A DNA stretch of 64,000 nt, from NCBI RefSeq assembly GCF_014284235.1, contig NZ_JACOGD010000005.1, positions 186,001-250,000 on the forward strand. Direction: 5' to 3'. The notes beneath the pieces were generated by a model. It worked only from the letters and a program-made list of their open reading frames with translations. It made no database searches and was not told the origin of the DNA. This DNA is from Cognatundibacterium curvum (GTDB taxonomy: Bacteria; Pseudomonadota; Gammaproteobacteria; Burkholderiales; Burkholderiaceae_D). Made by a program: the position numbers and the translations under genes. Shown piece after piece: positions 28,233 through 47,140 of the stretch (positions are counted from its first letter, which is position 1; the number at the start of each line of letters is the position of its first letter).

Positions 28233-28284
28233 TGTACCAAACAAGGGAAGTTTGAGGCGCACTGTTAATAGTGGATGCCTAGTT

Positions 28285-30489: not shown

Positions 30490-30580
30490 TTCGATTTGCT
30501 TGCTGAGATAAGTATCAACACCAGTCTGTAGAACAGTACAAGCTTGCGCATTTTCCATTCACCAAGCAGGAAAAAAGCGC

Positions 30581-30848
30581 CTGAAAATGAAAAAAATCAA
30601 CATTAACGAAGTCTGTGTTTGCCGCCGTTTTTGCCTTGTTTGGTAATGTGGCGTGGGCAGCGCAAAACGTGGCGGTATGTGCAAATAGCGAAGATACGGT
30701 GGAGCTCACGGCGTGCATGAATGGGCAGCTTGAGTTGAAGATTGCGAAGTTTCAGAAATATTTTCTGGCTGCGCAGAAGCAGGACAGTGTGGTCTGGGGC
30801 AGCGCGCGCTTTCTATTTTTCCGCCTTTCGCAGCCAGTTGTTGGCTAA
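30581..30848 (+). pseudogene. Truncated, frameshifted copy of the LprI/DUF1311 gene
   Basis: Bases 30581-30805 match 45698-45921 with about four substitutions and one inserted A, so this is a recent 5' duplicate of the gene at 45704. The extra A in the run after ATG 30587 shifts the frame and destroys the signal peptide. After GGCAGCGC the match is lost, and the frame continues GSARFLFFRLSQPVVG to a stop at 30848. GSARF also occurs further down the intact protein, so an internal deletion followed by divergence is possible. The segment lies just left of the WGR-DUF4132 gene. Confidence 0.88.
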
Positions 30849-30983
30849 TTGCTTAGTTAATTGGGCGTCATTGCCAATAAAACTGATCGATAATGCAGCC
30901 GACATCATCGTAAATACGCATGATCCCCAGGCTAAACCGATCGCCCCAAGATGTTTCCATAATGGAAGGATAAAATGCGTCAT
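30813..30983 (-). pseudogene. Possible remnant of a small membrane-protein gene
   Basis: A 56-codon minus-strand frame (MTHFILPLWKHLGAIGLAW...) with two hydrophobic stretches, ending within eight bases of the duplicated LprI segment. It begins inside the start of the WGR gene. Its abrupt end at the repeat junction suggests a gene cut by the same rearrangement, but the frame could also be chance. Confidence 0.2.
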
Positions 30984-33900
30984 TTTGAATACACTGATAC
31001 CGTTTCCGCCAAGTTTTGGCAAGTTGAACAGGAGCAGGCGAATCTACATATCTGCTGGGGACGTATTGGTACCAAAGGCCAGAGCCAGACGAAGAGTTTT
31101 AATGATGCAGCAAAGGCGACTGCTGCGATGCTGAAACTGGTGGCAGAGAAGACTGGCAAGGGCTACCAGGAAGTGGTACTTGAAGGCACTACGAGTGTTA
31201 CTGATGCTCAGAACGTCGCTGCTGTGACATCTTCACTTGTAAAGAGCGTGTCGATGCCTAAACCGATGCCGAAACCGGTGGCGAGCGCACCCGATACAAC
31301 AAAAAAAGAAATAGCTAGCGCGACTAGGTCCGATCAGGGCGCGATTATTATTCCCGAAGTTGTAGCAGAAACCGTAGATGAAGAAATAGAACGCGCCTTT
31401 ATCGAAATTTGTGGCCAAATTTCCAGGGGTAGTTTGGTGGAGCCGCCGGGTGGTTTGACCGTTGCCAAAATCCGTCGATTGCAAAATATTAGCGAGATTG
31501 CTGCTAACGAGGTGTATAAACAGCTGAGCAGAATTGGCTTGATATATTCCTACAATGGGAAGTTTCGTCATGATGCGCAATCGTTCGCAGTCAGACTTCT
31601 TCCCGTATTGTTTTCGCGCACCGTTTGCGCATTGACGAAATCGCCATCATCGTCCGCAATTGATGCGCTTGATGCCTCACAACGTGATGCGATTGCGCCC
31701 TGGTTCAGAAATGGCGAACCTCTGTATATCAGTGCTAGCGTTGGTTTTGGTATCCATACCCATGCACTAGCCACGCGGCGCTTTCCGCGCCGGATCAATA
31801 AAGTCGAGCCGCTGCAAGCATGGTTGGAATTGCGCGACTTGATTTCATTGGATGTTAATCCAGACTTCGCTTCAACCGATAGCAGTTTGCGAGAGGTTTT
31901 TCAAGCCGCATACAAGACTTTGGAGAGCCTTGAACTAAACGGCAACATGCAGACTGACGTTATTCTCCTTGTCCTTTGTTTGAATCAGCAGGGCTTCAGT
32001 AAGAAAAGAGTTGGCACTTTATTTGTGAACTATCTGGTCGCACGCCATGGTTTGCTATACGTGGTCGATGCTTTGCTGGAGGCCGAGAAAATCGAAGTGG
32101 TGCAAGATAAAAGCTGTTTGCACTTGAGCACGGAAGTTAGCACGCTTTTGAACAACCGCTACGGCACTCTGAGCGACGGCGAATGGACTCTACGCGAGCA
32201 TCTCGCTGCTGCGCCGCAGCCAGAGTACGAGGCATGCATTGCCAAAATACGGGCTGGCTTGCCTCAGGTGCCTGCTCTACGTCAACCTATTCTGGCCTTA
32301 CTCTTACCGGATGTACCTGAAATCAGCAACGAATTAGTCCATAGCTTATGCGCCCCCGATGCCATGTCCCCGCACACGGTGCATTGGTTGCAGGCGACCG
32401 CGACGGATCCTGTTGCATTGGCCTTAGCTGCTAAGGTGAAGAATGAGGGGATTTTCTGGGATCGCCCCGATTTGGTCAACACGATCTTATTAGAGCATGG
32501 TGTTGATGCTGTCTTATGGTTGGCGCCGGGCGCAACGCACGACGAAGCCGGTGAAGCGCTCACTTGCATAGGCACACCGGATGCGGTAGCGGCCCTGGCA
32601 CGTGTCGCCAGTAGTTCTAAGCATGCCTTAGCGCGTTTACATTTGGTGGTGAAACGTTGGCCGGCTGCTGCCATGTTCGCGCTCACCCGCCTGCTCAGTA
32701 GCAACAGTAAGGATCAGAGTTTGCTTAGCCCCACCCTCATCCAACTATTGCGTGAGCATCCCGAATTGCCAGATCAATTGCGCCCCTGGATGGAGCCAGC
32801 GAGTCTTGTGCTAATCGATAAAATGCTAACTAGGTTGGCAGCACCAGTGGACATTGCTGAGGCTGGCGATTTACCTGAAGTCATGGTTAGCGTGCCATGG
32901 TTACAAGCGAAAAAAAAGCTGCGGCCGACTCTGCAACTCATGCCCATTGAAATAATGCCAGTAGAGCAGTGGGATGCCGGAAAAAGAGAGCAAATGATGC
33001 GTACATCCAGTAACACCTCAGCGTGGTACTGGGAAAGCTTACAAAAAGCTGAGGCGGATCCCGATGTCATGATAGTAGAAATTTGTCGTTTACGGTATCA
33101 AACAGCTTCCGAGCATGCGTCTGAGCGCCAGCGCGCCAGTGCAGCCATTAAGGACGGAAACGTCGCGGAATTTATCGATGCGATGCGCGCTATCATCGTG
33201 GCGCTAAAAAAAGACGATCCGAAATTATCCTATTTTTCGTATTTTGATGCGCTACCTTTTTCCCGCTTGCCGCCTGAGCTGGGTATCCCATGTTGGAATG
33301 CGATAGCCGGCGAGTTTCCCTGGACGCATATGGATGCGATTGCTGGCGCTTGGGGCTTGGCTGCCCTGCCTGGCCTGGCAGTGAATATCAACAAAGAGCC
33401 TAGTAACTATATCGATCTGTCACAGTATTTCGGGGCGGTCGAACTGGCAGCAATTGCAGCACGTGTTTTTGCTAAACTTAAAACCTTACGCGGATGGGGA
33501 CGCTATTGGTTACGTAAGTTTCCTGAACACGCAATTGCTGGGCTTATTCCACCTGCGCTGGGAAAAGCGGGAGAAGCACGTGACAATGCAGCACTAGCCT
33601 TACGCTGGCTGGCTCGGAATGGTCATGCGCAATTACTCGATCAGATCGCTGCACGCTACGAACAAGCTGAAGTCCTCACAGCCTTGCATGCAATGCTCAA
33701 TGAAAATCCTTTGGAACGCTATCCGAACAAACGCGCCAGCTTGCCCGATTTTTGGAATCCGAGCGGCTGGTGCCGACCATTGCTGCATAACGGCAAGGCC
33801 TTGTCGGACGAAGCGCTCGATGTATTGGGCACCATGATGACTTTCCCCACAAACGATGAAGTGTATGCCGGCCTGCATCAAGTCAAGACGGCATGCACAA

Positions 33901-35249
33901 CGCAGAGTCTGGCCGACTTTGCATGGGATTGTTTCTCTGCCTGGCTAAATGCAGGGGCTCCAGCCAAGGAAGGCTGGGTGCTCACTAGCCTGGGTGTACT
34001 GGGCAACGATGAGGTGGCGCGCAAGCTGACGCCTTATATTCGTTCCTGGCCGGGCGAAGGGGCGCATGCGCGGGCGGTCACTGCTTTGGACGTCCTTGCC
34101 GATATTGGAACGGATGTCGCTTTGATGCTGTTGAACGGTATCGCCAAGAAAATTAAATATAAACCTTTGCAAGACAAAGCTACTAAGAAAATTCAGGATA
34201 TCGCAGAAGCCCGAGGTCTGACGCCCGAGGAATTGGAGGATAGACTCGCACCAGATCTGGGGTTGAGCGAACAAGGTAGTTTAGTGCTCGATTTTGGGAA
34301 ACGTGCATTTCAAGTCGGATTTGATGAAAGCTTAAAACCCTATGTACGTGAGTGGCTCGATAACAAGGCTGGTGCACGTTTGCCCGACCTTCCAAAACCA
34401 AAACAGACAGACGATGAAGCGCTCGCCAAAGAAGCGACCGAGCGTTACAAATCTTTGAAAAAGGATGTCCGCACGATTGCCAGTCAACAGCTATTACGTT
34501 TGGAAGTGGCGATGTGTACTCGTCGTCGCTGGAGTGCTGAGGTGTTCGCGTTATTTCTTGCAACACATCCGCTAGTGCGGCATTTAGTGCGCCGTCTGGT
34601 GTGGGGTGTGTATCTGATGAGCACTGAACAGAGTGGCGATGGTGAAGACCAGGAAATAAGCGTAGCGAGTTACGGTGGTCAATTGCAGAGCTGCTTCCGA
34701 GTTTCGGAGGATGGTAGTTACACTACGGCGCAGGACGACATTTTCGATCTGCCCGTTGGCCCCCAATACAAAATCGGACTGCCACATGCTTTGGAATTGT
34801 CAGCAAGCGAAGCGGCTGAGTTCGCTCAGTTACTGACGGATTACGAATTGCTGCAACCTTTCCCGCAGCTTGGACGTGACACTTATACCCTGACGGAAGA
34901 AGAGCAATCCAAGAGCAATCTTGACCGTTGGAAGGGCATCAAAGTAGCGAGTAGAAAAGTACATGGCCTCAGCGCTAAAGGTTGGTATCGTACCGATGGT
35001 GATGGCGGTGTTATTTCGGATTTTAGTAAAGCGGCAGGTGACGGGCGCATTCTTGAGCTGTATTTTGAGCCCGGTATTTATGTCGGTGATGTAGACGAAT
35101 CCCCTGAGCAAACTTTGGGTGAACTGCGGCTCTACAATCCATCAGATTCATTAAATCAGGATGCTGACGCTTCCAAATTTATTTTTTCCTCGGTTGATAA
35201 TATTTTGGTCAGCGAACTAATTCGCGACTTGGAGCGCCTACGAAAATGA
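30975..35249 (+). CDS. WGR domain and DUF4132 protein, MolR/YehI-like
   Basis: A 1424-residue cytoplasmic protein. An N-terminal WGR domain (residues 1-70, WGR at 28-30) is a nucleic-acid or NAD-related module also found in PARPs. A possible winged-helix segment spans about 140-205. A long helical, HEAT-like middle follows. The C-terminal DUF4132 domain (about 1135-1320) starts LPKPKQTDDEALAKEA and includes MCTRRRWSAEVFALFLATHPLV. E. coli MolR and YehI have related architecture; no molecular function is established. GGAAGGATAAA is the ribosome site. It overlaps the AAA gene by four bases (ATGA), so translation is coupled. Confidence 0.85.
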   Translation: MRHFEYTDTVSAKFWQVEQEQANLHICWGRIGTKGQSQTKSFNDAAKATAAMLKLVAEKTGKGYQEVVLEGTTSVTDAQNVAAVTSSLVKSVSMPKPMPKPVASAPDTTKKEIASATRSDQGAIIIPEVVAETVDEEIERAFIEICGQISRGSLVEPPGGLTVAKIRRLQNISEIAANEVYKQLSRIGLIYSYNGKFRHDAQSFAVRLLPVLFSRTVCALTKSPSSSAIDALDASQRDAIAPWFRNGEPLYISASVGFGIHTHALATRRFPRRINKVEPLQAWLELRDLISLDVNPDFASTDSSLREVFQAAYKTLESLELNGNMQTDVILLVLCLNQQGFSKKRVGTLFVNYLVARHGLLYVVDALLEAEKIEVVQDKSCLHLSTEVSTLLNNRYGTLSDGEWTLREHLAAAPQPEYEACIAKIRAGLPQVPALRQPILALLLPDVPEISNELVHSLCAPDAMSPHTVHWLQATATDPVALALAAKVKNEGIFWDRPDLVNTILLEHGVDAVLWLAPGATHDEAGEALTCIGTPDAVAALARVASSSKHALARLHLVVKRWPAAAMFALTRLLSSNSKDQSLLSPTLIQLLREHPELPDQLRPWMEPASLVLIDKMLTRLAAPVDIAEAGDLPEVMVSVPWLQAKKKLRPTLQLMPIEIMPVEQWDAGKREQMMRTSSNTSAWYWESLQKAEADPDVMIVEICRLRYQTASEHASERQRASAAIKDGNVAEFIDAMRAIIVALKKDDPKLSYFSYFDALPFSRLPPELGIPCWNAIAGEFPWTHMDAIAGAWGLAALPGLAVNINKEPSNYIDLSQYFGAVELAAIAARVFAKLKTLRGWGRYWLRKFPEHAIAGLIPPALGKAGEARDNAALALRWLARNGHAQLLDQIAARYEQAEVLTALHAMLNENPLERYPNKRASLPDFWNPSGWCRPLLHNGKALSDEALDVLGTMMTFPTNDEVYAGLHQVKTACTTQSLADFAWDCFSAWLNAGAPAKEGWVLTSLGVLGNDEVARKLTPYIRSWPGEGAHARAVTALDVLADIGTDVALMLLNGIAKKIKYKPLQDKATKKIQDIAEARGLTPEELEDRLAPDLGLSEQGSLVLDFGKRAFQVGFDESLKPYVREWLDNKAGARLPDLPKPKQTDDEALAKEATERYKSLKKDVRTIASQQLLRLEVAMCTRRRWSAEVFALFLATHPLVRHLVRRLVWGVYLMSTEQSGDGEDQEISVASYGGQLQSCFRVSEDGSYTTAQDDIFDLPVGPQYKIGLPHALELSASEAAEFAQLLTDYELLQPFPQLGRDTYTLTEEEQSKSNLDRWKGIKVASRKVHGLSAKGWYRTDGDGGVISDFSKAAGDGRILELYFEPGIYVGDVDESPEQTLGELRLYNPSDSLNQDADASKFIFSSVDNILVSELIRDLERLRK

Positions 35250-36376
35250 GTACTTCCAGCACCAAAAACAAAATAGTAAAAACTGGTCATTCAAATTTGC
35301 AACGCCCTCCTGCGGAAATCTTGTACGCGGCGCAATTAGCCCAACTGCAAGCACAGGATATGGATATCAAACCGCCCGGTTGGGCACTGAGTATGAAAGC
35401 TGCCCGAAGTTTTATATTGGGAGATCCTTCGTTGAATATTCCAGCCAAGATCGTGGCATCCGCTTCCAGTATAGAGCGGATGTTAGTGACCCTGGCGACT
35501 GGCCGTGGTTTGATGTTGGTCGGCGAACCAGGTACCGCCAAATCTTTGCTGTCGGAATTGCTAGCCTGTGCGTTGTCGGGCATATCCACCTTGACCATAC
35601 AAGGTGGTGCCGCGATTACCGAAGATCGAATTAAGTATGGCTGGAATTACGCGCTGCTCATTAACGAAGGGCCTTCTCCGCGTGCACTGGTGCCCGCGCC
35701 GCTTTTCCTCGGTATGCAGCAAGGGAAAATAGTACGTTTTGAGGAAATCACGCGCGCACCACTGGAGGTACAAGACTGCTTGTTAGGGATGTTGTCTGAC
35801 CGTGTCATGGCTATCCCTGAACTCAGCGATGAGCATGGGATGTTATATGCGCGTGAGGGCTTCAATATTATCGCCACCGCGAATACGCGGGATCGTGGTG
35901 TCAACGAAATGAGTGCGGCGTTGAAGCGCAGGTTTGATTTTGAGACGGTATTTCCTATTTTGGATTTTGAACGCGAACTGCAACTGGTGGCTGATAGTGC
36001 GGCGCGGCTACTGGAGCGTAGCGGCATTCCTAAAACGATTCCACCTCAGGTATTGGAATTATTGGTAAGCACCTTTCGAGACTTACGTGGAGTCACTGAC
36101 GGTAAATCTGTGCCGGGCGAGGCAATGGATAGGCTCAATGCGGTCATGTCCACTGCTGAGGCAGTGAACGTGGCACATGCAGTGGGAGTGCGCGCATGGT
36201 TTCTCGAACAACGCGAGGGAAATCCAGCTGATGTCGTCGACTGTATTGCCGGCACAGTTGTGAAAGATAACGCTGATGATCATGCCAAATTACGCCGTTA
36301 TTTTGAGCAAAGGGTAGCGAAACGCACTGAGGCACACTGGCGTGCCTTTTACGAAGCGCGCCACCGCCTGCCATGA
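35246..36376 (+). CDS. MoxR-type AAA+ ATPase, YehL-like
   Basis: A 376-residue AAA+ ATPase. Walker A is GEPGTAKS (residues 93-100). The Walker B region is RFEEITRAPLEVQDCLLGML (about 162-181), and sensor 1 is IIATANTRDRGVNEMSAALKRRFD in part (near 210). MoxR ATPases are remodelling chaperones that act with VWA-domain partners, and the YehL group is one of the recognised MoxR branches. Here the VWA partner is two genes downstream. The start overlaps the upstream stop, so the pair is translationally coupled. Confidence 0.92.
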   Translation: MSTSSTKNKIVKTGHSNLQRPPAEILYAAQLAQLQAQDMDIKPPGWALSMKAARSFILGDPSLNIPAKIVASASSIERMLVTLATGRGLMLVGEPGTAKSLLSELLACALSGISTLTIQGGAAITEDRIKYGWNYALLINEGPSPRALVPAPLFLGMQQGKIVRFEEITRAPLEVQDCLLGMLSDRVMAIPELSDEHGMLYAREGFNIIATANTRDRGVNEMSAALKRRFDFETVFPILDFERELQLVADSAARLLERSGIPKTIPPQVLELLVSTFRDLRGVTDGKSVPGEAMDRLNAVMSTAEAVNVAHAVGVRAWFLEQREGNPADVVDCIAGTVVKDNADDHAKLRRYFEQRVAKRTEAHWRAFYEARHRLP

Positions 36377-36431
36377 GATGCGCGATGCGATTGATTAAGT
36401 TATTGTTTGAGATATTGTTTAGCGTTACCAC

Positions 36432-38969
36432 ATGAATGCCGAACCGCATATTATCGGAGTGCGTCATCACAGCCCAGCCTGCGCACGCTTGGTGGCCGCC
36501 CGCATACGCGCCCTCAAACCGGCTTTTGTTTTGATAGAAGGTCCTGCCGATTTCAATCACCGGCTTGATGAACTGGCGTTACCGCACCGATTGCCAGTCG
36601 CGATTTATAGCTATGTGTCTGGTCGTTTGGAACACCATGATGGTGTAGATGAACCAGAGTACCCGGTAAGCCAAACCGAAGTGCATCATGGATCCTGGAC
36701 ACCCTTCGCGGAGCACTCGCCCGAGTGGCAAGCTTTAAGTGTTGGGCGCGCTGTTGGAGCAGCACTTCGTTTTATCGATTTGCCTGCATGGCATGCATCC
36801 TTTTCCAATAAAGCCAACCGTTATGCGGATGAAGATGGTGAGCGTCAGGAGCAACGTGCTGATGGGTATTTGCGCGGGCTGGCGACACGCCTTTGTATAG
36901 AGTCGTCTGATGCTTTATGGGATCAGTTATTTGAGGATGAAACGGATTTAGTCACACTGGCCGAAAACCTCCGCACGCATTTTTTTCACTTGCGCAATCA
37001 AGATCCGGGATCCATCGGTAATCAGGCGCGTGAAGCAAAGATGGCCGATTGGATCGCTTGGGCGATGGCGCAAGATTTGGGTCCCGTGTTGGTCGTATGT
37101 GGTGGTTACCATGCGCCAGCCCTGGATAGTTTATGGTACGCCCGAGTTTCGCAATTTGCGAAGAATGGTGAGGAACCCGTAACGCCCTCCCCACAAATTT
37201 ATGCACCCACCACTTGCGTAGCCCCAGATGATGCGGCAAGCGGATTGAACGGGTTAAGAAGTTTATTAAATCACGAGCCAGGCCTGCGCTACGGTTCATT
37301 TTTGGTTCCCTATACATTTAAGCGCTTGGATGCCTTTGCCGGTTATGCTTCTGGCATGCCTTCACCAGCCTACTACCAATCGGTATGGAACTATGGAAAT
37401 GATGGTGCCGGCCGCCAGATGTTGAAAGAGGTATTGACGCGTCTGCGGGGGAAAAAACTCCCTGCGTCTACTGCCGATCTGATGGCGATGCAAGTGCGTG
37501 CGCATGGTCTGGCACGATTGCGTGGACATCGCCAGCCTTTGCGCAGTGATTGGTTAGATGCCTTGGCGGGTGCCTTGTTGAAAGATGCGCTGGACGCGCC
37601 TCTTCCCTGGAGCTATCGTGGTCCACTTCGCCCGGGTACCGATCCCATCTTAGTGGAAACCATGGATGTGCTCGCTGGTGATCAAGCCGGTAAATTGGCC
37701 GCTGCGACCCCACAGCCCCCGCTCGTCGCGGCGCTCTGGTTGGAGCTGGAAGCAGCTGGCCTGGTCATAAGCTCACAGCCAATAAATGTCACATTAGATT
37801 TGCTAACACCGATGGGGCGCTTGCGAAGCCAGCTGTTACATCGGGCGAGTCTGTTGGAGTTGCCAGGTTTTATCCGTCGGAGCGGACCGAAACTGGCGCT
37901 ATCTGGGGAATGCAAAGAGTTATGGATACTCAATCGACCGCCTGAGCAAATCGCTGCATTAATTGAGGCCGGTGCCTGGGGGGCTACGCTACTTGATGCG
38001 GCGCGGGCCAAATTAGAAGATACATTACGCCGTGCGAACGGCCGTATTATTAATTTAGCTGACGGACTCAATCGCGCTGCGTTTGCCGGTTTGTCGGGAC
38101 TCAGCCAAGCTGTCATGGCAGACTTGCAAATAGCCGTCGCTCAGGAGCCGCAATTTGAATCCTTGGCGCCAGCCTTAGGGATGTTGTTGACCCTGCTACG
38201 CCATGGTCAAGCGCTAGGCATGGCGGGCGCCCCTGTGTTGCAAGTCATGATCGAAGCGGGTGTGGATCGCGCGCTGTGGCTATTAGAGCCGCCAGCTGCC
38301 GTTCCTTTGGCATCGATGACAGCGCATCTTCAGGGTTTTAGCGCACTACGCCAAATCGCTGCGGATGTGTTGAGTATGCAGCACCCCGGGTATTCGCTTG
38401 CTGACGGACAGGAACAGACTGGTAATAGCCAAGCATTAGCGTTAGAGATTCCGCGTATGTTCGCGGTGTTTCAGCGAAAAGCGTCGTGTGGCAATTCGGC
38501 AGCAGTGAGTCGCGGGGCGGCCTTGGGTGCCATGATCAGTTTACACGCACATTTAGCCCCAGAAACATCAGACCATACGACGATACGGGACGAGGCATTG
38601 ACTGTGATGACTAGCTTGCCAGCAGAAAAATTAGGCGACGCTGTCTGCGGCTTGCTCGCCTTAGCTCGTGAGCAGGTAATGCATGACCCTCAATTCGTCG
38701 CAGGCATCGATGCCTGTATACAAGGCTTAGACGACCATGATTTTTTGATTGCCCTACCGGCCTTGCGTGGTGCGTTTGCCTGGTTACCAACGCGAGAACG
38801 TGGCAATCTGGCAGAGCACGTACTTGGTTTGTACCAGGGGCAGCATTTGTCGCGCCGCTATTTGACGGATCACGTTAGCACATGGACGCAGCAAGCGATT
38901 GCTGAACACCAATTGGCAGAAAAGCAGGCTATCGCGCGCCTGGCTGAGTGGGGAATCGCATGGAAATGA
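36432..38969 (+). CDS. DUF5682 family protein, YehM-like
   Basis: An 845-residue protein with no signal peptide or membrane segment. The N-terminus has IIGVRHHSPACARLV and the strand FVLIEGPADFNHRLDELAL, resembling the ChaN/EreA/TraB-like group in which a His-rich motif and an acidic strand form a putative active site; catalysis is unproven. A conserved GPVLVVCGGYHAPAL stretch lies near residue 220. The C-terminal half is helical. E. coli YehM is the counterpart next to YehL. Fifty-five bases separate it from the AAA gene. Confidence 0.82.
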   Translation: MNAEPHIIGVRHHSPACARLVAARIRALKPAFVLIEGPADFNHRLDELALPHRLPVAIYSYVSGRLEHHDGVDEPEYPVSQTEVHHGSWTPFAEHSPEWQALSVGRAVGAALRFIDLPAWHASFSNKANRYADEDGERQEQRADGYLRGLATRLCIESSDALWDQLFEDETDLVTLAENLRTHFFHLRNQDPGSIGNQAREAKMADWIAWAMAQDLGPVLVVCGGYHAPALDSLWYARVSQFAKNGEEPVTPSPQIYAPTTCVAPDDAASGLNGLRSLLNHEPGLRYGSFLVPYTFKRLDAFAGYASGMPSPAYYQSVWNYGNDGAGRQMLKEVLTRLRGKKLPASTADLMAMQVRAHGLARLRGHRQPLRSDWLDALAGALLKDALDAPLPWSYRGPLRPGTDPILVETMDVLAGDQAGKLAAATPQPPLVAALWLELEAAGLVISSQPINVTLDLLTPMGRLRSQLLHRASLLELPGFIRRSGPKLALSGECKELWILNRPPEQIAALIEAGAWGATLLDAARAKLEDTLRRANGRIINLADGLNRAAFAGLSGLSQAVMADLQIAVAQEPQFESLAPALGMLLTLLRHGQALGMAGAPVLQVMIEAGVDRALWLLEPPAAVPLASMTAHLQGFSALRQIAADVLSMQHPGYSLADGQEQTGNSQALALEIPRMFAVFQRKASCGNSAAVSRGAALGAMISLHAHLAPETSDHTTIRDEALTVMTSLPAEKLGDAVCGLLALAREQVMHDPQFVAGIDACIQGLDDHDFLIALPALRGAFAWLPTRERGNLAEHVLGLYQGQHLSRRYLTDHVSTWTQQAIAEHQLAEKQAIARLAEWGIAWK

Positions 38970-39039
38970 AGTTTCATCTCAAATTGCCGCATCAGGGAAT
39001 TCATGAAGCTGGTGGCCAGGCTATGATCCGGAAAAGAAG

Positions 39040-40164
39040 ATGACACTACAGATACCTTCTCAATTGGAACGCTGGCGCTTGATGTTGGGTGAAGCTGCGG
39101 CAGGTGCCTGTGGTAGCCTCAGCGATCAGGCTTTGGCAGCTGATGCCGCGCTTGAGTGGTTGTATGGTCGCGACCCACAACGTGTTGAGCGTGATGAGCG
39201 TGGCGCCGGTCTCGGTGTTTCAGAATTGAGCACACCAGACTGGATTAATAGTATTCACAGCTTGTTTCCCAAAGAAGTTATTGAACGTCTTGAGCAAGAT
39301 GCGGTAGAACGTTTCGGTATCGATGAAGTCGTGACGAATCTGGAGGTGCTGGAACGTATAGAACCATCCGAAGCCTTGCTGCGTGCGGTGTTACAGACCA
39401 AGCACTTGATGAACCCGCAGGTACTCGCAGCAGCACGAAAACTCGTGGCCGAGGTGGTGCGTCGTATTATGGAGAAATTGCAAACCGAAGTGCGTCAGGC
39501 GTTTAGTGGTAGCCGTGATCGCAGGCGGCGCAGTCAAATGAAAGTCGCCAGTAATTTCGATTTTAAAAAAACGGTAGCGGAGAATTTGCATCGTTGGCAT
39601 CCGCAACGCCAGCGTCTGTATCTGGAGCGTCCCGTGTTTATGAGTCGCAGCCAGCGTCATGTACAAGCCTGGGATGTGATCTTATTGATCGATCAAAGTG
39701 GCTCTATGGTCGATTCGGTCATACATAGCGCGGTGATGGCGGCGTGCCTGTGGAACATACCCGGCATGCGAACACGCCTGGTCGCGTTTGACACCGCGGT
39801 GGTCGAACTGACTTCGGATATTGCAGATCCTGTCGAGCTATTGATGAAGGTACAGTTAGGCGGCGGCACTGATATTGCCAAAGCGGTAGCGTATGCGCAG
39901 GGTCTAATTCAAAATCCCAGTCGTAGCGTGGTCGTCTTAGTGAGCGATTTCTGTGAAGGCGGCAGCGAATACGAATTGGTTCGTCGCGTAAAAACATTAG
40001 TGCAAGGTGGCACCAGGGTGCTGGGCTTAGCAGCTCTCGATAGTCAAGCCAATCCCGCCTATGACAGGGCAATGGCAGAGCGTTTAGTCAATGCTGGTGC
40101 GCAGGTAGGGGCAATGACCCCTGGTGAATTAGCCACCTGGCTTGCAGAGAAATTACGCACATGA
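39040..40164 (+). CDS. VWA domain protein, CoxE/YehP-like
   Basis: A 374-residue protein. A helical N-terminal region (1-205) precedes a von Willebrand factor A domain with an intact metal-ion-dependent adhesion site: DQSGS (Asp218, Ser220, Ser222), Thr277 in GGGTDIAKA, and Asp in VVLVSDFCEGG. VWA proteins with intact sites bind Mg and partner with MoxR ATPases to recognise clients. The GGAAAAGAAG site before ATG 39040 sets the start. It is followed seven bases later by the SWIM gene. YehP is the E. coli counterpart. Confidence 0.9.
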   Translation: MTLQIPSQLERWRLMLGEAAAGACGSLSDQALAADAALEWLYGRDPQRVERDERGAGLGVSELSTPDWINSIHSLFPKEVIERLEQDAVERFGIDEVVTNLEVLERIEPSEALLRAVLQTKHLMNPQVLAAARKLVAEVVRRIMEKLQTEVRQAFSGSRDRRRRSQMKVASNFDFKKTVAENLHRWHPQRQRLYLERPVFMSRSQRHVQAWDVILLIDQSGSMVDSVIHSAVMAACLWNIPGMRTRLVAFDTAVVELTSDIADPVELLMKVQLGGGTDIAKAVAYAQGLIQNPSRSVVVLVSDFCEGGSEYELVRRVKTLVQGGTRVLGLAALDSQANPAYDRAMAERLVNAGAQVGAMTPGELATWLAEKLRT

Positions 40165-40171
40165 GATTACA

Positions 40172-42226
40172 ATGAATTTACGTCAGGATCTACTTGAGTT
40201 AAGGCCCGAGGCGCTGACGGCACTGGCCAATCCTGGCTTTGTTAAACGCGGCCAAAAAGATGTCGCAGCCGGACAACTTCCAAACTTAAGCCAAGATGTT
40301 GATGGCACGGTGCATGCTCTGTTTGAAGATGGTATACGAACCCAGATCGGACTCAGTGAGTCTTTGCGTGACGCCGCCTGTACCTGTATCGCCAGCGGTA
40401 TGTGCCGACATCGTGTCACCTTGGTATTGGCTTATCAGGCATTGTATGGGAACGCAGCCGGCAAACCTGCGCACGCAGAAGTGGCTGAGGACGACTGGAG
40501 CCCGGCGCAATTCGATGATGAGGCCGTTGCCGCCGTATTTTCACCGACGGTAATTGAACAAGCGCGCAAACTCGCGTTGACCCGTCCACTTGCCACAGTA
40601 ATTTCCGGATCTGCCAGCGCCCCCAAAGTACTTGGCGTCAGTCTGGCTATGAGCAACGTTCGTTTTTTTTCACGTAGTAATCTGGCGCATGCGCGTTGCG
40701 ACTGTCAGCAAGGAGTAGGCTGTGTCCATGTGGTGTTGGCGATCTGGGCTTGTCGACTGGCGCAGCAATTACAAACTGATGGCGCTGATCGTGTTGAAAG
40801 TGCTGAGGTCAACCTGGAAATTACGCCGTTTGGCCAAATTGAGTTGCAAGTGCAATTAGCTGGCACTATGCAAACTCCAGCCGATATTGCATTAGTGACG
40901 CAGCTGCATGCATGGTTAAGTTTGATATGGAACGAAGGATCAGCGCAGCCGTTATTGGGTCTTGAAGCGCATTATGCGAGCTTACAGGCAGATTTGGCGC
41001 AGCGGGGCTGGACGTGGGTAATGGCGGAACTGGAATCAGTTTGGCACATGTTGCAAGCACAAGAACGGCGCTCCAATCGCTTCGATAGCGTCGATTTGCT
41101 CAACTCGTTAGCAGAACTCTGGGGGCGCTTGCAGGCAGCAAGCCGTGCTGGCAGCGTGATTAATCCGCGGCTACCGGCAAGCCAGATACTAGGGATAGGC
41201 CAGAAAGGTGAAGTAACACTCGATTTGCTGCGCTTGATTTCGCTGGGTACTGAGCTTTGGCGCGACGATGTAAGCGAAGGAGCAAGCCTGGTATTTGCCG
41301 ATCCCGACACGCAATCTGTCTTGGTACTTGAGCGTTCCTGGCCGCGTCTCACTGATGCTTCGAATAGTCCTGACAGTTTGCTAAACCGTCGGCTTTCAGG
41401 ACAGTCTCTCAAATCATTGGCGAGCAGCCAATTAGTCACAAAAGCGGCCAAACGGCGTGCCAATGCCACTCTCGAATTAGGCGGAAATGCCCGTCAAACC
41501 AGCGTATTTCCGCTCTCTCCCGCGTCATGGAATGACCTGCAGCCGCCACTTCGCTTTACACAGTTGAATGACTTGCTTCAATTTCTAGCGAATCGCCCGC
41601 CATCTTGTCTGCGGCCAGGTCAAGTTGGTAGCCATTGGCAGGTCTTGTCATTGACCGAGATGACTCTGCTAAATTGGGCTTGGGATGCCGCAAAGCAAAC
41701 CCTGTTTGCACGTTGGGAGAGCTTTGATCACATCACGCTATGCTGGCATCTTCCCTACCAACACTTAACACCCGGTGCGGTCGATACGCTGGCACGAGCG
41801 CTCAGCGGCGAGTGGGGAAGTGTACTCAGTATCGCTGGCCCAGTTTGGTTGGAATCTGGTGGCGTAGGGATCCGACCCATGAGTGTAATGACACAACAGC
41901 GCGCTATCGTGCTTGCCTTTGAGGCCGGTGCACCGCAAAAAATGGCCTTGCAAGAAGTACCGCTTCCTGGAAATGCGAGGCAGTTGCTTTTACGCGAGAC
42001 ACAGAATTTACTGGGTCAACACTTGCGCCAGGGATTGCGCCACGCAGCGCAACCACAGCGCAAACGTTGGTATGCGCAGGCTAAGCAGGTCGGCGATGCT
42101 GGTTATCCGGAGGCTGCCGCCTTGATGAATACAATTTTCACTGATGACCTATCGTGCAGAAACACCCGCAATATCGAAGCATTGGCTGCGCTCAGCTTAT
42201 TGCTGGGTGAACTGCTGATTTGGTAA
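40172..42226 (+). CDS. SWIM zinc-finger protein with two SWIM motifs, YehQ-like
   Basis: A 684-residue protein from ATG 40172 (MNLRQDLLELRPEALTAL); a start ten codons upstream would overlap the VWA gene and is less likely. It has two CxC-xn-CxH motifs: Cys70, Cys72, Cys78, His80 and Cys176, Cys178, Cys184, His186. SWIM fingers bind DNA or proteins. The rest (200-684) is helical with no recognised fold. It is the last plus-strand gene of the cluster and converges on the second DUF4132 gene. Confidence 0.85.
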   Translation: MNLRQDLLELRPEALTALANPGFVKRGQKDVAAGQLPNLSQDVDGTVHALFEDGIRTQIGLSESLRDAACTCIASGMCRHRVTLVLAYQALYGNAAGKPAHAEVAEDDWSPAQFDDEAVAAVFSPTVIEQARKLALTRPLATVISGSASAPKVLGVSLAMSNVRFFSRSNLAHARCDCQQGVGCVHVVLAIWACRLAQQLQTDGADRVESAEVNLEITPFGQIELQVQLAGTMQTPADIALVTQLHAWLSLIWNEGSAQPLLGLEAHYASLQADLAQRGWTWVMAELESVWHMLQAQERRSNRFDSVDLLNSLAELWGRLQAASRAGSVINPRLPASQILGIGQKGEVTLDLLRLISLGTELWRDDVSEGASLVFADPDTQSVLVLERSWPRLTDASNSPDSLLNRRLSGQSLKSLASSQLVTKAAKRRANATLELGGNARQTSVFPLSPASWNDLQPPLRFTQLNDLLQFLANRPPSCLRPGQVGSHWQVLSLTEMTLLNWAWDAAKQTLFARWESFDHITLCWHLPYQHLTPGAVDTLARALSGEWGSVLSIAGPVWLESGGVGIRPMSVMTQQRAIVLAFEAGAPQKMALQEVPLPGNARQLLLRETQNLLGQHLRQGLRHAAQPQRKRWYAQAKQVGDAGYPEAAALMNTIFTDDLSCRNTRNIEALAALSLLLGELLIW

Positions 42227-42445
42227 TTCGTACCGCGATCGGTTATGAGAAGAAATCATTAAACAAACCACGCCAACAGATGCAGTTTGAGCTGCACCTT
42301 ACTCAGAGTGATGTTTTCGATCTGTGTTAATTGCTGCTCCTTGCTCTTCAAGCATATACACCGAATCGGTACAACTTTTCACTCTCCTTTGGCATTGTTG
42401 ATTGCCTTAGCTGTTGTTCAGGTCAGAGTGTCCGGTTTGCAGTCA

Positions 42446-45322
42446 TCATGCGACGAACCAGGTCATGAAGTGGAGGTCCCTTTGGATTTCGCTATAGGAA
42501 ATTGCGTCCAGCTGCGCCATTTTTTGCTGTGGATTACTCAAGCCTATCCGTCGAATTTGCATCACTTCTTTGCCATCAGCTGGAGTGCCAACGAACCACT
42601 CGCCTTCGAACTGACAAACCATGCTCGACTCATCGATAAGCTGTTTGCTTAAGCTATCAATGATGCCATCCTCACCGACGCTGCGCTTCCAACCGCGTTG
42701 TTCCAAGCCAAGCAGGCTGGCTATCCTGACACTGCGCCCTACCCATTCAGATAATTCACTTTTCGCCGCGTCTTTTTGATCGAGCAGATAGCTTTCCCGT
42801 GTCAGTTGAATGAAGGGCGGTAGAATTTGGTAATCGCTCAACCGTTGTCCAAAAGCTGATCTTGCATGTGACGTCAGTTCCAGCGTATGCGCAATCCCCA
42901 TGCTACAGTTTTCAGGCAATTGATAATCATCGTCTTCGCTGTCGCTTAAGCTAAAATCTTCTGCTACCCGGCAAGCGGCAATTAGCTGATTTTCCTCGTT
43001 ATACACGCCCCAGATTAGCCCTTGGGCCACATGTTGAAGCAATGGATGGCGCACAAATAAAGTCATGAATTCTTCGGTGCTCCAACGTCTTTGTGCACAC
43101 ATGGCAGCCTCCAGGCGTTGCAGCTGATGGCTGGCGATACTCTTGAGTTGTTTCTTTAAATCTTTGTACAGTGCGGCTGCTTCTTTCGATAATGCGGGGT
43201 CGTCTTTCGAATTAGGTTTTGGTAAATCTTTGAGTATTTTTCCATCCCCATCCTTAATATTAGGCATCAGGCGCTGATCTACACTTAGCGAAAACTGTCT
43301 GGTGCCAAAATCAAGATTAAGCTTACCATTCCTGTCCAGGCCTAAATCTGGCACGGTGCGATCTGCCAACTGTTCCAGACTCAAGCCACGCTGCTCGCCG
43401 ACACCACGCAACAGATCCGCAGCACGCCCTTTCAAATCATTAAAACGGGTTTGCTGGCTCAGGGTATGCAAGTACATCAAGGCTACATCGCTACCGATTT
43501 GCGCTAACATATTCATCGCGTCATAGGCACGAATTCGGCTCAATGCTGCACGCCACTGACGCAGTGCGATGTAGAGTTGACGTGCCGTTTCATCATTACC
43601 TAGCACGCCCTGGGCATCGAAGATCCAGCGGTCCTTGGGAGGATTGCCATTGTCTTGCCACCATTTGAATAAGGCTTGGCCGAAACGGGCAAATGATTCT
43701 GGCGTGATGCTTTCCAGTAGTGTGCTCAGTCCGGCATAGGGTTCATCGGTTTTACTTAGCATCAAACACATCACAACATCTGGCAAGGAAGTGGTGGGGA
43801 TAGCATGTCCACTATCTTTCAAAATTAAACGTGGCAGGCCAGCGAGATGAAGGTTTTTCGGCGCAGCAGGAAGTTTTTCTGGAAGTATCTCTTCAGGTGC
43901 CACGGATAATAAACTTGTGAGCGCATCAACCGTGGCGGTACCATAACGGTTCGCCTGTGAAATCATGCTTTCACCATGTCCATTTGCGCAAAGCCAACGC
44001 AAGGCGTATTGGGCTGTTTCTCGCGACGTGACATCGGCGCCAAATGCAAACGGCAACAGACCACGTGCCGCAGTTGCCGGATAACGCGAGAGCCAGACGC
44101 GCGCCGAGGGTTTTGCCCACTTGTTTTTAACTAACAAGCATGCCATAGCTAAGGCCAGATCATCAGACTCGACTTCAAGGAACTGCGGTAATTGACGGGT
44201 CGATTGCATGGTGCCTGCCACCCGCCCTATTGGTGAAATAAACCTGTCCTCAAAATGATTCAGTAAGGAATACCACGAATCACCCCAGCTTGACAAAACA
44301 TACTCGAAAATATTGCGTACCTTTGCGTACCGAAACACCTTGTCCGCAACCGGTTTGGGTAAAACAAATAAGGCTGAAAAGCAAGTCAAATCGTGGAGTC
44401 CATAGGGGGGGTAGGCGAAATCATCTGAGCTCGCGCTAGCTCCAGTCAATAGTCGTTCCAGTGCATCTGGTTTGCCCCCTAAGGCAAACAGCGCCTTGTG
44501 CGCAAGCGACCAGTTGTGGCACCCCTCAGGATTGTGACGAGCAAGAAAAGCAGGCATTTTCTTTTCGAGTTCCTCGACTATCTGAGTCGCTTCATCCGCT
44601 AAACGATGTCGAGCAAGTTCAGAATAGTGCGGAGAAAAAACTTGCATCTTATCGTGCAGTGGATCAAGTGCTAATTGCGCTACTTTTGGTAATGCACGCC
44701 TATTGCGCCAATAGGGATTGCGGAGAATTTCAGGCAATTCCTCGAGCGTAGCCTCTGACATCGCTTCTGGTTCTAAAAGGCGTTGCAGTGTTTTTAATTG
44801 TGTCTCGTCACACTTCGCTTGCAGTGGTGCCAGCCAGTCTGGATGCGTTAGGATTAATTCCACCACCAAGTTTGCTGTTGCCTGATGGCGCGTAGGATGA
44901 GTCGAAATTAATTTTGCCAAGATGAAGAGCGGCCATTGTGCAACCTGCTTAAGCAGAGCCCCTTTAATTGCCGGCAACTTGGAGTAGGGCAGCAAGGCAT
45001 CCGTTACGCGTTCGTCATGGACTTGAAGTAACAGATCCAGGCCCAATTCGGAGATGTACTTTTTTTCCAAGACTGATTTGAGAACGGAATCCAAAGCGTC
45101 TAGGCCATGCCATTGCAGCAAGCGGGCTTGCACAGGCGTCCAATCGTAGTAAGCAAGCATTTCAGTTTGCAACACCGCGCAGTTTTGGATGTAGCTAGCA
45201 TCCTCGTTTAAAAGTGTTGAGGGAATTCCGGTCAGCGGCTTCTGACATAAGTCGATCATGCTGGGAGACCAATGTATCGCGCTATCTGGCACCGCATTCA
45301 GGTTTTCGACTTTTTTTGCCAT
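42446..45322 (-). CDS. Second DUF4132 protein, without WGR domain
   Basis: A 958-residue protein (ATG 45322; a GTG at 45331 adds three residues). Its C-terminal third is clearly paralogous to the protein at 30975: both share a KPxxxDDxAL(A/S)KEA segment, the MC(A/T)xRRWS motif and HPL(L/V). The N-terminal two-thirds are helical and repeat-like, without WGR. It is convergent with the SWIM gene, so it needs its own promoter in 45323-45703. Two DUF4132 paralogues with one AAA/VWA module suggests distinct clients or subunits; this is inference. Confidence 0.83.
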   Translation of the reverse strand: MAKKVENLNAVPDSAIHWSPSMIDLCQKPLTGIPSTLLNEDASYIQNCAVLQTEMLAYYDWTPVQARLLQWHGLDALDSVLKSVLEKKYISELGLDLLLQVHDERVTDALLPYSKLPAIKGALLKQVAQWPLFILAKLISTHPTRHQATANLVVELILTHPDWLAPLQAKCDETQLKTLQRLLEPEAMSEATLEELPEILRNPYWRNRRALPKVAQLALDPLHDKMQVFSPHYSELARHRLADEATQIVEELEKKMPAFLARHNPEGCHNWSLAHKALFALGGKPDALERLLTGASASSDDFAYPPYGLHDLTCFSALFVLPKPVADKVFRYAKVRNIFEYVLSSWGDSWYSLLNHFEDRFISPIGRVAGTMQSTRQLPQFLEVESDDLALAMACLLVKNKWAKPSARVWLSRYPATAARGLLPFAFGADVTSRETAQYALRWLCANGHGESMISQANRYGTATVDALTSLLSVAPEEILPEKLPAAPKNLHLAGLPRLILKDSGHAIPTTSLPDVVMCLMLSKTDEPYAGLSTLLESITPESFARFGQALFKWWQDNGNPPKDRWIFDAQGVLGNDETARQLYIALRQWRAALSRIRAYDAMNMLAQIGSDVALMYLHTLSQQTRFNDLKGRAADLLRGVGEQRGLSLEQLADRTVPDLGLDRNGKLNLDFGTRQFSLSVDQRLMPNIKDGDGKILKDLPKPNSKDDPALSKEAAALYKDLKKQLKSIASHQLQRLEAAMCAQRRWSTEEFMTLFVRHPLLQHVAQGLIWGVYNEENQLIAACRVAEDFSLSDSEDDDYQLPENCSMGIAHTLELTSHARSAFGQRLSDYQILPPFIQLTRESYLLDQKDAAKSELSEWVGRSVRIASLLGLEQRGWKRSVGEDGIIDSLSKQLIDESSMVCQFEGEWFVGTPADGKEVMQIRRIGLSNPQQKMAQLDAISYSEIQRDLHFMTWFVA

Positions 45323-45703
45323 TGAACACACTCTCTTTTGTTTATCACGTCATGAATTTATTTTTTACTTCGGATGGAAGTATAAAAGCCGCCGTTAGCA
45401 ATATTATCACAATGACATGAGTAGAAAAAACGAAGGTACTCTATGAGCAAGCACTTATTTGAGACGGCGACAGGGGGGAGCTCCCGTAAAAGCAAGCCAT
45501 ACATAGCCAGAGTCGCTGCGTAAAGAAACTATTTTTGTGTTGATTGATAATATTGAAAATATTTTGTGTTAAGTTGCATTGTTGGTATATTTATATGATC
45601 TAATATTAACTCATGGAAAAAGAAATGCATTCCATCCATGTGCAAATCGCTCTCAGAAAATTGAGTTTCAAAATAACTTCAACCACAAATTTCCTCTCTG
45701 AAA
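45323..45703. other. AT-rich intergenic region between DUF4132 and LprI-like genes
   Basis: About 380 bases that hold the divergent promoters. It contains the palindrome GGGAGCTCCC (45476-45485) and a short open frame listed separately. Apart from the repeat that begins at 45698, nothing in it matches the left flank of the cluster. Confidence 0.5.
45443..45523 (+). CDS. Possible 26-residue small peptide
   Basis: ATG 45443 follows AAGG at six bases and opens 26 codons: MSKHLFETATGGSSRKSKPY then IARVAA and a stop. It is basic at the C-terminal half and has a Gly-Gly in the middle. No family was recognised. A frame this short can occur by chance; the ribosome site is the only support. Confidence 0.22.
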   Translation: MSKHLFETATGGSSRKSKPYIARVAA

Positions 45704-46132
45704 ATGAAAAAATCAACATTAACGATGTCTGTGTTTGCCGCCGTTTTTGCCTTGTTTGGTAATGTGGCGTGGGCAGCGCAAAACGTGGCGGTATGTGCGA
45801 ATAGCAAAGATACGGTGGAGCTCACAGCGTGCATGAATGGGCAGCTTGAGTTGAAGATTGCGAAGTTTCAGAAATATTTTCTGGCTGCGCAGAAGCAGGA
45901 CAGTGTGGTCTGGGGCAGCGCTAAAGAATTAATCAAAACTCAGGAAGCCTGGGAAAAGTATCTGCGTCAGCATTGTGATTCTCTGTATAGCCGCGAGCAG
46001 GGCAGTGCGCGTTTTTATGAGACTGCTGCCTGTCAGTTGCGAATGTACGATGATCGCATCCATGAAATCTGGATGTCCCATCTGACTTATCGCGATGCCA
46101 CACCGCCGCTACTGCCTGATCCTCAACAATAA
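45704..46132 (+). CDS. LprI/DUF1311 family periplasmic protein
   Basis: A 142-residue protein with a signal peptide (MKKSTLTMSVFAAVFALFGN then VAWA-AQ). The mature part has the DUF1311 pattern: Cys in VAVCAN, Cys in LTACMNGQLE, then TQEAWEKYLRQHC and a final Cys in AACQLRMYDDRI. LprI from Mycobacterium inhibits lysozyme; whether this one does is unknown. Its first 224 bases are duplicated at 30581-30805. It lies between the DUF4132 gene and the siderophore PPTase. Confidence 0.82.
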   Translation: MKKSTLTMSVFAAVFALFGNVAWAAQNVAVCANSKDTVELTACMNGQLELKIAKFQKYFLAAQKQDSVVWGSAKELIKTQEAWEKYLRQHCDSLYSREQGSARFYETAACQLRMYDDRIHEIWMSHLTYRDATPPLLPDPQQ

Positions 46133-46198
46133 AGTCCGTGCCATTGTGCTTGAGATGGCGCGTGAAAAATGAGCCGACCCTGGTGTGCCTGACGCAGG

Positions 46199-46990: not shown

Positions 46991-47084
46991 ATTCTTATCC
47001 TCCCTCTGTTTCATGCTTAAAGCACGCATGCGGTTGACCTTGTTTCTGGGAACAATTAATTATTTCACAAAGTATTTGCAAACA

Positions 47085-47107: not shown

Positions 47108-47140
47108 CGTTTATTGATCTTATTGTTACCGAGGAAAGAA

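Follow-up and report, generated by a model that had tools for sequence, protein, structure and literature searches.

A cluster of six genes in Cognatundibacterium curvum, at positions 30975-45322 of the window (the whole stretch of 64,000 nucleotides analysed), joins a MoxR AAA+ ATPase and its VWA partner to a DUF5682 protein whose N-terminal domain looks like hydrolases of the TIKI/TraB/ChaN/Ere superfamily, and such clusters are widespread across bacteria, E. coli among them. With a likelihood that we put a little short of even, the cluster encodes a single ATP-driven MoxR-VWA motor acting with a TIKI-like hydrolase, for which HEAT, WGR and SWIM proteins would serve as sensors or adaptors.

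Gene organization, insertion and the E. coli counterpart

All six genes are real and intact, with reading frames open across their coordinates. The first-pass annotation had described a WGR-DUF4132/MoxR/DUF5682/VWA/SWIM/DUF4132 set, and its reading frames, overlap, gaps and convergent paralogue were all confirmed by Pfam and ORF checks. The genes and the features of the insertion carrying them are as follows.

27425-45480: insert of approximately 18 kb carrying the cluster, delimited by its absence from the sister genome G309
30591-30805: left copy of a 215-bp direct repeat (98%), a truncated 5' part of an LprI-like gene
30975-35249, + strand: P0001, 1424 aa, WGR, HEAT-like region and DUF4132, MolR/YehI-like (ORF, Pfam and E. 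coli comparison)
35246-36376, + strand: P0002, 376 aa, YehL-type MoxR AAA+ ATPase (Pfam AAA_5)
36432-38969, + strand: P0003, 845 aa, DUF5682 protein, YehM (Pfam DUF5682)
39040-40164, + strand: P0004, 374 aa, CoxE-type VWA protein, YehP (Pfam VWA_CoxE)
40172-42226, + strand: P0005, SWIM zinc-finger protein, YehQ (Pfam SWIM, two stretches)
42446-45322, - strand: P0006, convergent DUF4132 protein lacking WGR, the second of the cluster (Pfam DUF4132)
45707-45921: right copy of the 215-bp repeat, within a native LprI-like gene (45704-46132)

P0001 and P0002 share a 4-base ATGA overlap, and gaps of 55 and 70 bases separate P0002 from P0003 and P0003 from P0004, respectively. The P0005 frame opens at TTG 40142 and has an ATG at 40172, to which the gap of 7 bases after P0004 is counted. 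P0006 starts at ATG 45322, with GTG 45331 as a possible alternative, and is 37% identical to P0001 over 601 aa. The insert has a GC content of 0.494 compared with 0.536 (10001-27424) and 0.546 (45481-64000) on either side, and in the sister species, which lacks the cluster, a HEPN/RES-RES gene occupies the same site. Judged from these sequence features, the cluster arrived in this genome by DNA insertion.

The MoxR, DUF5682, VWA_CoxE and SWIM genes are adjacent in the order yehL-yehM-yehP-yehQ, and their products are 72.9%, 44.1%, 66.2% and 35.6% identical to YehL, YehM, YehP and YehQ, respectively. P0001 matches YehI (31%) and, piecewise, the upstream yehF and yehH pseudogene, into which the WGR-DUF4132 gene of MG1655 is broken. 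The counterpart named in the annotation, yehI-yehL-yehM-yehP-yehQ, is correct by these identities, and the yehF/yehH-yehI-yehL-yehM-yehP-yehQ locus has five protein families and their order in common with the window. The second DUF4132 gene is convergent at the far end in the window whereas it is in tandem in E. coli, and unlike the E. coli locus the window cluster lacks yehK and sits in an insert. The locus is near-core in E. coli, being present in 5155 of 5426 genomes, and a growth defect linked to lepA-molR1 has been reported.

Conservation and subtypes across bacteria

Conservation was followed in a comparison set of 80 related loci, for which the scan used two patterns, one containing RHH. 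DUF5682 was immediately preceded by the MoxR gene in 75 of 77 testable loci and immediately followed by the VWA gene in 73 of 76 (of 80 in each case), and at 13 places found by Pfam, the window's own excluded, MoxR adjoined DUF5682 in 13 and VWA in 11. The MoxR, DUF5682, VWA and SWIM proteins co-diverge, with Mantel r values of 0.94-0.98 for all six pairs and none of 500 permutations reaching r. Gene order, Mantel correlations and protein identities bear out the earlier proposal of a MoxR-VWA system inherited as a unit with an E. coli counterpart; across the 80 loci the genes did co-occur and the Walker and MIDAS motifs were not degenerate, either of which findings would have spoken against it had it been otherwise.

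Walker A, the Walker B region and the MIDAS are all intact in the window cluster. In P0002, Walker A reads GEPGTAKS (aa 93-100), in which Ala replaces the final Gly, as is usual in MoxR proteins, and its G, P, G, T, A and K are invariant in 78/78 rows, as are glutamates 166/167 and arginines 228/229. The P0004 MIDAS (DQSGS...T...D; D218, S220, S222, T277 and D303) is kept at all five residues in 77/77 VWA rows, so that the motifs annotated as intact are retained in every aligned relative. P0004 has its best Pfam match in VWA_CoxE (E 4.3e-59), a domain that extends to aa 368 of 374; since the protein ends approximately where this domain ends, P0004 carries no C-terminal effector domain. The double-SWIM assignment holds for P0005, in which two stretches are present, but extends poorly to relatives: each Cys/His of the first finger is kept in 61/63 rows and the second finger in only 22/63. 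The WGR domain of P0001 matches the solved chain 2ra8 (E 1e-9), and the presence of WGR and SWIM domains suggests that the cluster may contact nucleic acid.

Two mutually exclusive subtypes were observed. Type I loci encode HEAT-like DUF4132 proteins, some with WGR, whilst type II loci keep MoxR-DUF5682-VWA together with DUF5691 and a different SWIM protein. DUF4132 was present in 0/7 full-context type II loci compared with 54/59 other loci, WGR was found in 19/66 full-context loci, and DUF4132 copy number varies between loci, also within E. coli. The suggestion that the large DUF4132 protein is the client of the ATPase was not borne out: because type II retains the core with DUF5691 in place of DUF4132, the latter is not an obligate client, and because MoxR-DUF5682-VWA persists there without DUF4132, DUF5682 is the constant partner. 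For the two families no more than a HEAT-like character is claimed in common, homology between DUF5691 and DUF4132 having been dropped as a candidate (profile versus one sequence, E 0.3). Of the neighbours outside the core, those that recurred beside the 80 loci belonged to LysR and transporter families or, in 12 loci, to a response-regulator cluster.

The N-terminal domain of DUF5682

The resemblance of DUF5682 to TIKI/TraB/ChaN/Ere-superfamily hydrolases, which the first-pass annotation had not seen, concerns the N-terminal part of P0003, the C-terminal part being mostly helical.

P0003, approximately aa 1-312: TIKI-superfamily-like N-terminal domain with H12/H13, E36, D116, R200, E201 and H227

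All seven residues are present in 48/48 DUF5682 sequences and in 13/13 of the Pfam-only set, although for H12/H13 the way in which the 80 loci were selected itself favours conservation to some extent, as RHH occurs in one scan pattern; E36, R200 and H227 are absent from both patterns. The conserved His, Glu, Arg and His stand at the catalytic places of the superfamily, in a motif order parallel to it, and the two catalytic His, Glu and basic residue that characterize TIKI proteins are conserved in the domain. Ere and RRSP are described as having a His-Glu-Arg-His pattern with an H-E spacing of 28 and an R-H spacing of 28-29; in DUF5682 the H12-E36 spacing is 24 in all rows and the R200-H227 spacing is 26-28 in 34/48 rows (range 23-39). 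No second Glu, as expected from the 2His/2Glu motif (E-x-H or E-x-x-H), was found. DUF5682 differs from the superfamily in having no Glu three residues ahead of the first His, the equivalent of EreC E47; position 9 holds G, P or A, with R11 there. ChaN and TraB members are said to carry GxxH in place of the second-Glu motif. DUF5682 differs further in its much greater length (845 aa), its helical C-terminal part and its fixed MoxR-VWA partners. As described, the superfamily also includes non-hydrolases, with ChaN binding haem and PMT lacking the motif.

Profile comparison by hhalign gave scores of 28.8 for DUF5682 against ChaN and 25.5 against TraB, neither of them reached by any of 80 column shuffles, compared with 32.3 for the known ChaN-TraB pair. 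Probabilities were low (3.6% for ChaN and 2.6% for TraB), and the intended control, the DUF5682 C-terminal part against MoxR, gave E 0.0049, better than either. Pfam matches of single members were not significant for ChaN (5/48, best E 0.029), TraB (3/48, 0.047) or Ere (1/48, 0.15), and unrelated families scored equally well or better (e.g. HrpJ 0.013, CTE_SPB4 0.016). In a confident model of DUF5682 (pLDDT 87.9), H12/H13, E36 and H227 lie at strands or immediately behind them and R200 belongs to a helix, a strand/helix order that would fit a parallel beta-sheet core. Foldseek with both whole models returned nothing at E <= 0.001, and for the whole DUF5682 chain the best 50 matches listed were helical, with no TIKI-fold chain among them; when solved structures were searched with a DUF5682 profile, the matches were helical and at chance level (best E 0.0056). 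The terms DUF5682 and DUF5691 were found in no paper of the open-access literature searched, and the hydrolase-like character of DUF5682, labelled 'unknown function', was previously unrecognised.

Possible function of the cluster

In the machine favoured here, the motor would consist of a ring of the MoxR AAA+ ATPase P0002 together with the VWA protein P0004, and it would act on P0003, the DUF5682 protein, or feed or gate it. The N-terminal domain of P0003 would be a TIKI/TraB/ChaN/Ere member keeping His-Glu-Arg-His and might hydrolyse a peptide or ester bond. The HEAT-like proteins (DUF4132, some with WGR, or DUF5691 in type II) and the SWIM protein would recognise what triggers the machine or what it acts on, plausibly nucleic acid or a nucleic-acid-bound protein. 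NorQ-NorD, CoxD-CoxE and RavA-ViaA also combine a MoxR ring with a MIDAS-bearing VWA partner; these have one known target enzyme whereas the cluster has DUF5682, SWIM and HEAT-like proteins as fixed partners. The pair might instead act without hydrolysis as a NorQ-NorD/CoxD-CoxE-type metal inserter or site remodeller, perhaps at the two-histidine site of DUF5682. The VWA_CoxE match of P0004 is consistent with this, as are the reported dependence of NorQD FeB insertion on both ATPase and MIDAS (PMC9976466) and the molybdate-related naming of molR that a reference title indicates. However, no cofactor enzyme recurred beside the 80 loci, and an invariant Glu and Arg with two His fit hydrolysis better than plain metal binding, making a chaperone of this kind rather unlikely.

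Three-part systems of MoxR, a CoxE-related vWA and a third partner (VMAP, iSTAND and others), to which the cluster is alike in composition, are proposed to be conflict systems (PMC7159879), and the cluster could similarly be a MoxR-vWA threshold switch with the TIKI-like domain as effector and phage or plasmid nucleic acid as trigger. The insertion is cargo-like, with the HEPN/RES-RES gene at the same site in the sister, a mobilizable Iodobacter plasmid carries the gene set next to a type I restriction system, and the variable DUF4132 copy number is in keeping with such a role. Against it, PADLOC gave no match for 5/6 proteins, P0002 only touching PDC-M37B at E 0.0053, the cluster is near-core in E. 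coli, and the flanking genes are mostly ordinary; 104 proteins that flank 28 loci gave no sign of the suggested defence-island enrichment, a comparison with no matched control. Carriage by phages or plasmids was dropped, with DUF5682 in only 1 phage record and 34 plasmid records, some chromosome-sized. The cluster showed no Pfam match at E up to 0.1 to the third components of VMAP, iSTAND and beta-propeller systems, bpMoxR scored 16.4 bits, below its cut-off of 27, and the presence of the cluster in E. coli means that it is not, unlike the three-part systems, restricted to multicellular bacteria. A conflict role is accordingly improbable, and to about the same degree we doubt a DNA-damage machine, with the operon belonging to an SOS or equivalent response and broken DNA ends bound through WGR. 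WGR occurs in a minority of full-context loci, no LexA box was found upstream of P0001, and LexA-type boxes were not enriched upstream of genes of the 80 loci (gamma/beta, 1 found versus 1.07 expected; Gram-positive, 4 versus 2.19; alpha, 2 versus 3.54), so that general SOS control was dropped. The sole sign of DNA-damage control seen was a LexA-like box upstream of molR in E. coli, and the data argue only faintly for a defence or a DNA-damage role. DUF4132 was found by Pfam in 6/111 Deinococcota genomes; a link to the Deinococcus DdrO regulon was dropped, five DUF4132 regions there lacking MoxR, DUF5682 and VWA, and an RDRM at 14/15 positions. In 3/5 of these regions the gene found by Pfam escaped the DUF4132 profile made for this analysis, so that the DUF4132 genes there are divergent.

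A fuller version of the motor-hydrolase reading is correspondingly more tentative than its core: a TIKI-fold hydrolase bearing a MoxR-lid-like docking segment, which would lie at aa 345-388 of P0003, would be coupled to the MoxR-VWA motor and switched on by a SWIM adaptor and HEAT-like sensors that read nucleic-acid state, the sensors being interchangeable between DUF4132, whether it has WGR or not, and DUF5691. This would constitute a widespread, undescribed class of ATP-driven machine, resembling an ATP-dependent protease but with no relation to Clp, Lon, FtsH or the proteasome. If YehM/DUF5682 is indeed a TIKI-type hydrolase worked by such a motor, the ATP-dependent hydrolases would gain a class that occurs in many bacterial phyla. 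Precedent for pairing a MoxR-vWA motor with a hydrolase comes from jumbo phages, in which a metallopeptidase is fused to the vWA protein; the passage that describes it mentions no HEAT, WGR or SWIM partners (PMC7824862). For the near-core E. coli locus, a concrete biochemical hypothesis is that YehM/DUF5682 is a TIKI-type hydrolase worked by the MoxR-VWA motor, with H12, E36, R200 and H227 (window numbering) as its key residues.

The six genes and their conservation as a unit

All six open reading frames are present and intact, with the spacing that the first-pass annotation had given, and Pfam searches assigned the domains shown in brackets.

30975-35249, + strand: P0001, WGR-DUF4132 protein (WGR and DUF4132)
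35246-36376, + strand: P0002, YehL-type MoxR AAA+ protein (AAA_5)
36432-38969, + strand: P0003, YehM counterpart (DUF5682)
39040-40164, + strand: P0004, VWA protein, YehP counterpart (VWA_CoxE)
40172-42226, + strand: P0005, YehQ counterpart (SWIM, two stretches)
42446-45322, - strand: P0006, second DUF4132 protein (DUF4132)

The E. coli yeh counterpart named in that annotation is correct: the MG1655 order is yehI-yehK-yehL-yehM-yehP-yehQ, and P0002-P0005 are 72.9%, 44.1%, 66.2% and 35.6% identical to YehL, YehM, YehP and YehQ, respectively (blastp). P0001 matches YehI (31%) and, piecewise, yehF and the yehH pseudogene directly upstream (blastp), so MG1655, too, carries a pair of DUF4132 relatives, of which one is broken. 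A tandem array of three DUF4132 genes is present in one E. coli isolate (NZ_OZ501674, L175:1-6814), and DUF4132 copy number thus differs within E. coli.

A Pfam search found DUF5682 in 13/299 genomes of the window's phylum, the window's own counted; besides the window's own place, a YehL-type MoxR gene adjoined it in 13/13 Pfam-matched places and a VWA gene in 11/13, the remaining two showing none within the short stretch covered. A species-level scan (one genome each) yielded at least 563 relatives, the best 80 of which were taken as loci, a top-scoring share whose proportions fit the nearer relatives best. Among these best 80 of at least 563, MoxR lies immediately upstream of DUF5682 in 75 of the 77 loci that extend far enough (exceptions L057 and L069) and VWA immediately downstream in 73/76 (exceptions L069 and, with VWA farther downstream, L054 and L091), whilst of the 66 full-context loci 57 have a window-type SWIM gene following, seven a different SWIM gene preceding and two (L057 and L069) neither. 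DUF4132 is present in 54 of these 66 loci (34 with a single copy, 12 with two and 8 with three) and immediately precedes MoxR in 46, and WGR is present in 19. MoxR, DUF5682, VWA and SWIM co-diverge, with Mantel r of 0.94-0.98 for all six pairs and 0/500 permutations as high (62-78 loci per pair, window and E. coli included). According to record titles the relatives come from Proteobacteria, Actinobacteria, Planctomycetes, Verrucomicrobia, Myxococcota, Lachnospiraceae, Bacteroidia and others. The core architecture is thereby well supported.

Two layouts and the working residues of MoxR, VWA and SWIM

Eight of the best 80 loci (of at least 563) are laid out as SWIM (approximately 457 aa)-DUF5691-MoxR-DUF5682-VWA, DUF5691 being detected in 8/8 (weakest E 8.7e-05) by a profile built on five of those same loci. 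DUF4132 was found in 0/7 full-context loci of this layout versus 54/59 others, and DUF4132 is therefore not the obligate client of the ATPase; the first-pass proposal that the ATPase remodels the large DUF4132 proteins was not supported. Designed HEAT-like repeat proteins in the Protein Data Bank match the DUF4132 profile (E 1.8e-19), and one DUF5691 protein reached Pfam HEAT at E 0.0031, below the curated cut-off. Given the exclusive layouts and these HEAT matches, one HEAT-like slot seems to be occupied by either DUF4132 or DUF5691. What stays constant is MoxR, DUF5682 and VWA, together with a SWIM protein of some kind.

The Walker A residues G, P, G, T, A and K, glutamates 166/167 and arginines 228/229 are unvarying across 78 MoxR rows, as are five MIDAS residues across 77 VWA rows; the Walker and MIDAS degeneracy in relatives that the first-pass annotation had named as counter-evidence was thus not seen. 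In SWIM proteins each first-finger ligand is retained in 61/63 rows and the second-finger ligands in 22/63 (63 rows out of 70 matched frames, the others dropped for coverage). By sequence, the best solved relatives of P0002 are midasin AAA domains (best E 2.4e-10).

The DUF5682 N-terminal domain and a reading of the cluster

Ten residues (R11, H12, H13, E36, D116, R200, E201, M204, G224 and H227 of P0003) are invariant in 48/48 DUF5682 sequences, comprising the window protein and 47 non-redundant members from 75 usable relatives, and in 13/13 of a Pfam-based set that includes the window and E. coli proteins; RHH formed part of one of two scan patterns, so that H12/H13 conservation in the larger set is partly built in, and E36, R200 and H227 were absent from both. 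These residues nearly match the TIKI superfamily pattern as set out in PMC7979712 and PMC6254334, where the active residues are E47, H50, E78, R261 and H289 in EreC and E3900, H3902, E3930, R4001 and H4030 in RRSP. Measured against those published residues, H-to-E spacing is 24 in DUF5682 versus 28 in EreC and RRSP, R-to-H spacing is 26-28 in 34/48 rows (23-39 overall) versus 28 in EreC and 29 in RRSP, and the first glutamate (EreC E47) is without counterpart. The AlphaFold model of DUF5682 is confident (pLDDT 87.9) and places H12/H13 after strand 6-10, E36 within strand 32-38, R200 within helix 195-214 and H227 after strand 219-224.

With hhalign the N-terminal profile scored 28.8 against ChaN and 25.5 against TraB, 0/80 column shuffles being as high for either, at low absolute probabilities (2.6-3.6%); the accepted pair ChaN-TraB scored 32.3, and a control against MoxR scored 20.8, matched by 4/80 shuffles. 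The aligned segment takes in the helix that carries the Arg and the end of the strand with GxxH. Single-member Pfam scans gave non-significant matches to ChaN ('Tiki superfamily'; 5/48, best E 0.029), TraB (3/48, best E 0.047) and erythromycin esterase (1/48, E 0.15), and unrelated families were touched equally strongly by single members of the same 48. Solved chains compared with the DUF5682 profile gave nothing beyond chance-level helical rows, and the Foldseek matches listed for the whole model were helical proteins alone. We consider it likely that the N-terminal domain belongs to the TIKI superfamily, and somewhat probable that its putative catalysis is kept, both estimates being slightly lowered by the missing first glutamate and the low absolute profile probabilities.

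A comparison intended as a control revealed a weak resemblance between P0003 residues ~345-388 and the C-terminal part of P0002 (aa 304-344; hhalign 27.3, 0/80 shuffles). The blastp E value was 0.12, and Pfam AAA_lid_2 was reached by 2/48 DUF5682 members (best E 0.091). Judged from sequence, these residues may form a docking segment, or the likeness may have arisen by chance.

The best-supported reading of the cluster is a MoxR-VWA motor that would be coupled to DUF5682 as a putative TIKI-like hydrolase, with the HEAT-like, WGR and SWIM proteins as presumptive recognition parts. Hydrolysis, a trigger and a target of this machine are what we infer. Its working mode would be akin to that of MoxR-vWA three-part systems, and since its third component differs the cluster lies outside those described.

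Arrival in this genome and genomic surroundings

In the sister-species genome lacking the cluster (G309), matches to window 20534-27424 (95.6-95.8%) and 45481-54115 (93.4%) lie only approximately 1.3 kb apart, indicating an insert at approximately 27425-45480. This insert has a GC content of 0.494 versus 0.536 and 0.546 in the flanks and, besides the six genes, contains an S41 peptidase gene and a 155-aa ORF that matches no Pfam family. Its left part (27765-30489), holding the ORF and the S41-type peptidase with a TPR-like start, has a GC content of 0.41. At the matching site G309 carries a gene with a HEPN/RES N-terminal and a RES domain (L119:9412-10536), so that differing cargo may enter between ssb and the LprI-like gene. 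A 215-bp direct repeat (98%; 30591-30805 and 45707-45921) brackets the six genes and consists of the 5' part of the LprI-like gene, with a truncated copy on the left and the native gene on the right; the G309 copy shares 87.6% identity with the left repeat, which makes it probable that the duplication took place in this lineage. DUF5682 matches occur in 5/35 same-genus genomes at 28-38% identity, and in two of these five (G300 and G324) MoxR, DUF5682 and VWA match the window's, with P0001, P0005 and P0006 unmatched.

Among 104 flanking proteins from 28 loci (flanks alone counted), no Pfam family recurred in more than three, and 50 PADLOC families had matches, each of the 25 families listed matching one or two members. 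The yehL-yehQ stretch is near-core in E. coli, 5155/5426 genomes having at least 80% of it, and the molR region is less widespread (3989/5426). A LexA-like box lies upstream of E. coli molR; across the best 80 of at least 563 loci LexA-type boxes were not enriched. Published hints come from reports that mitomycin C induces a Deinococcus DUF4132 protein and a WGR protein (PMC8533742), that E. coli lepA-molR1 double mutants have a doubling time of 33 minutes versus 22 for the molR single mutant (PMC4245954), and that resistance transposons have inserted at the molR/DUF4132 region of E. coli (PMC9334617, PMC7406970).

The mobilizable plasmid pl1 of Iodobacter fluviatilis (L176:4330-17578) carries two DUF4132 genes with MoxR-DUF5682-VWA-SWIM, neighboured by a type I restriction system and transposases. 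Window 46199-64000 holds a probable siderophore cluster encoding a phosphopantetheinyl transferase, a TonB-dependent receptor, chorismate-binding and AMP-binding enzymes, a PepSY protein and a non-ribosomal peptide synthetase, the gene for the last running past the window end.
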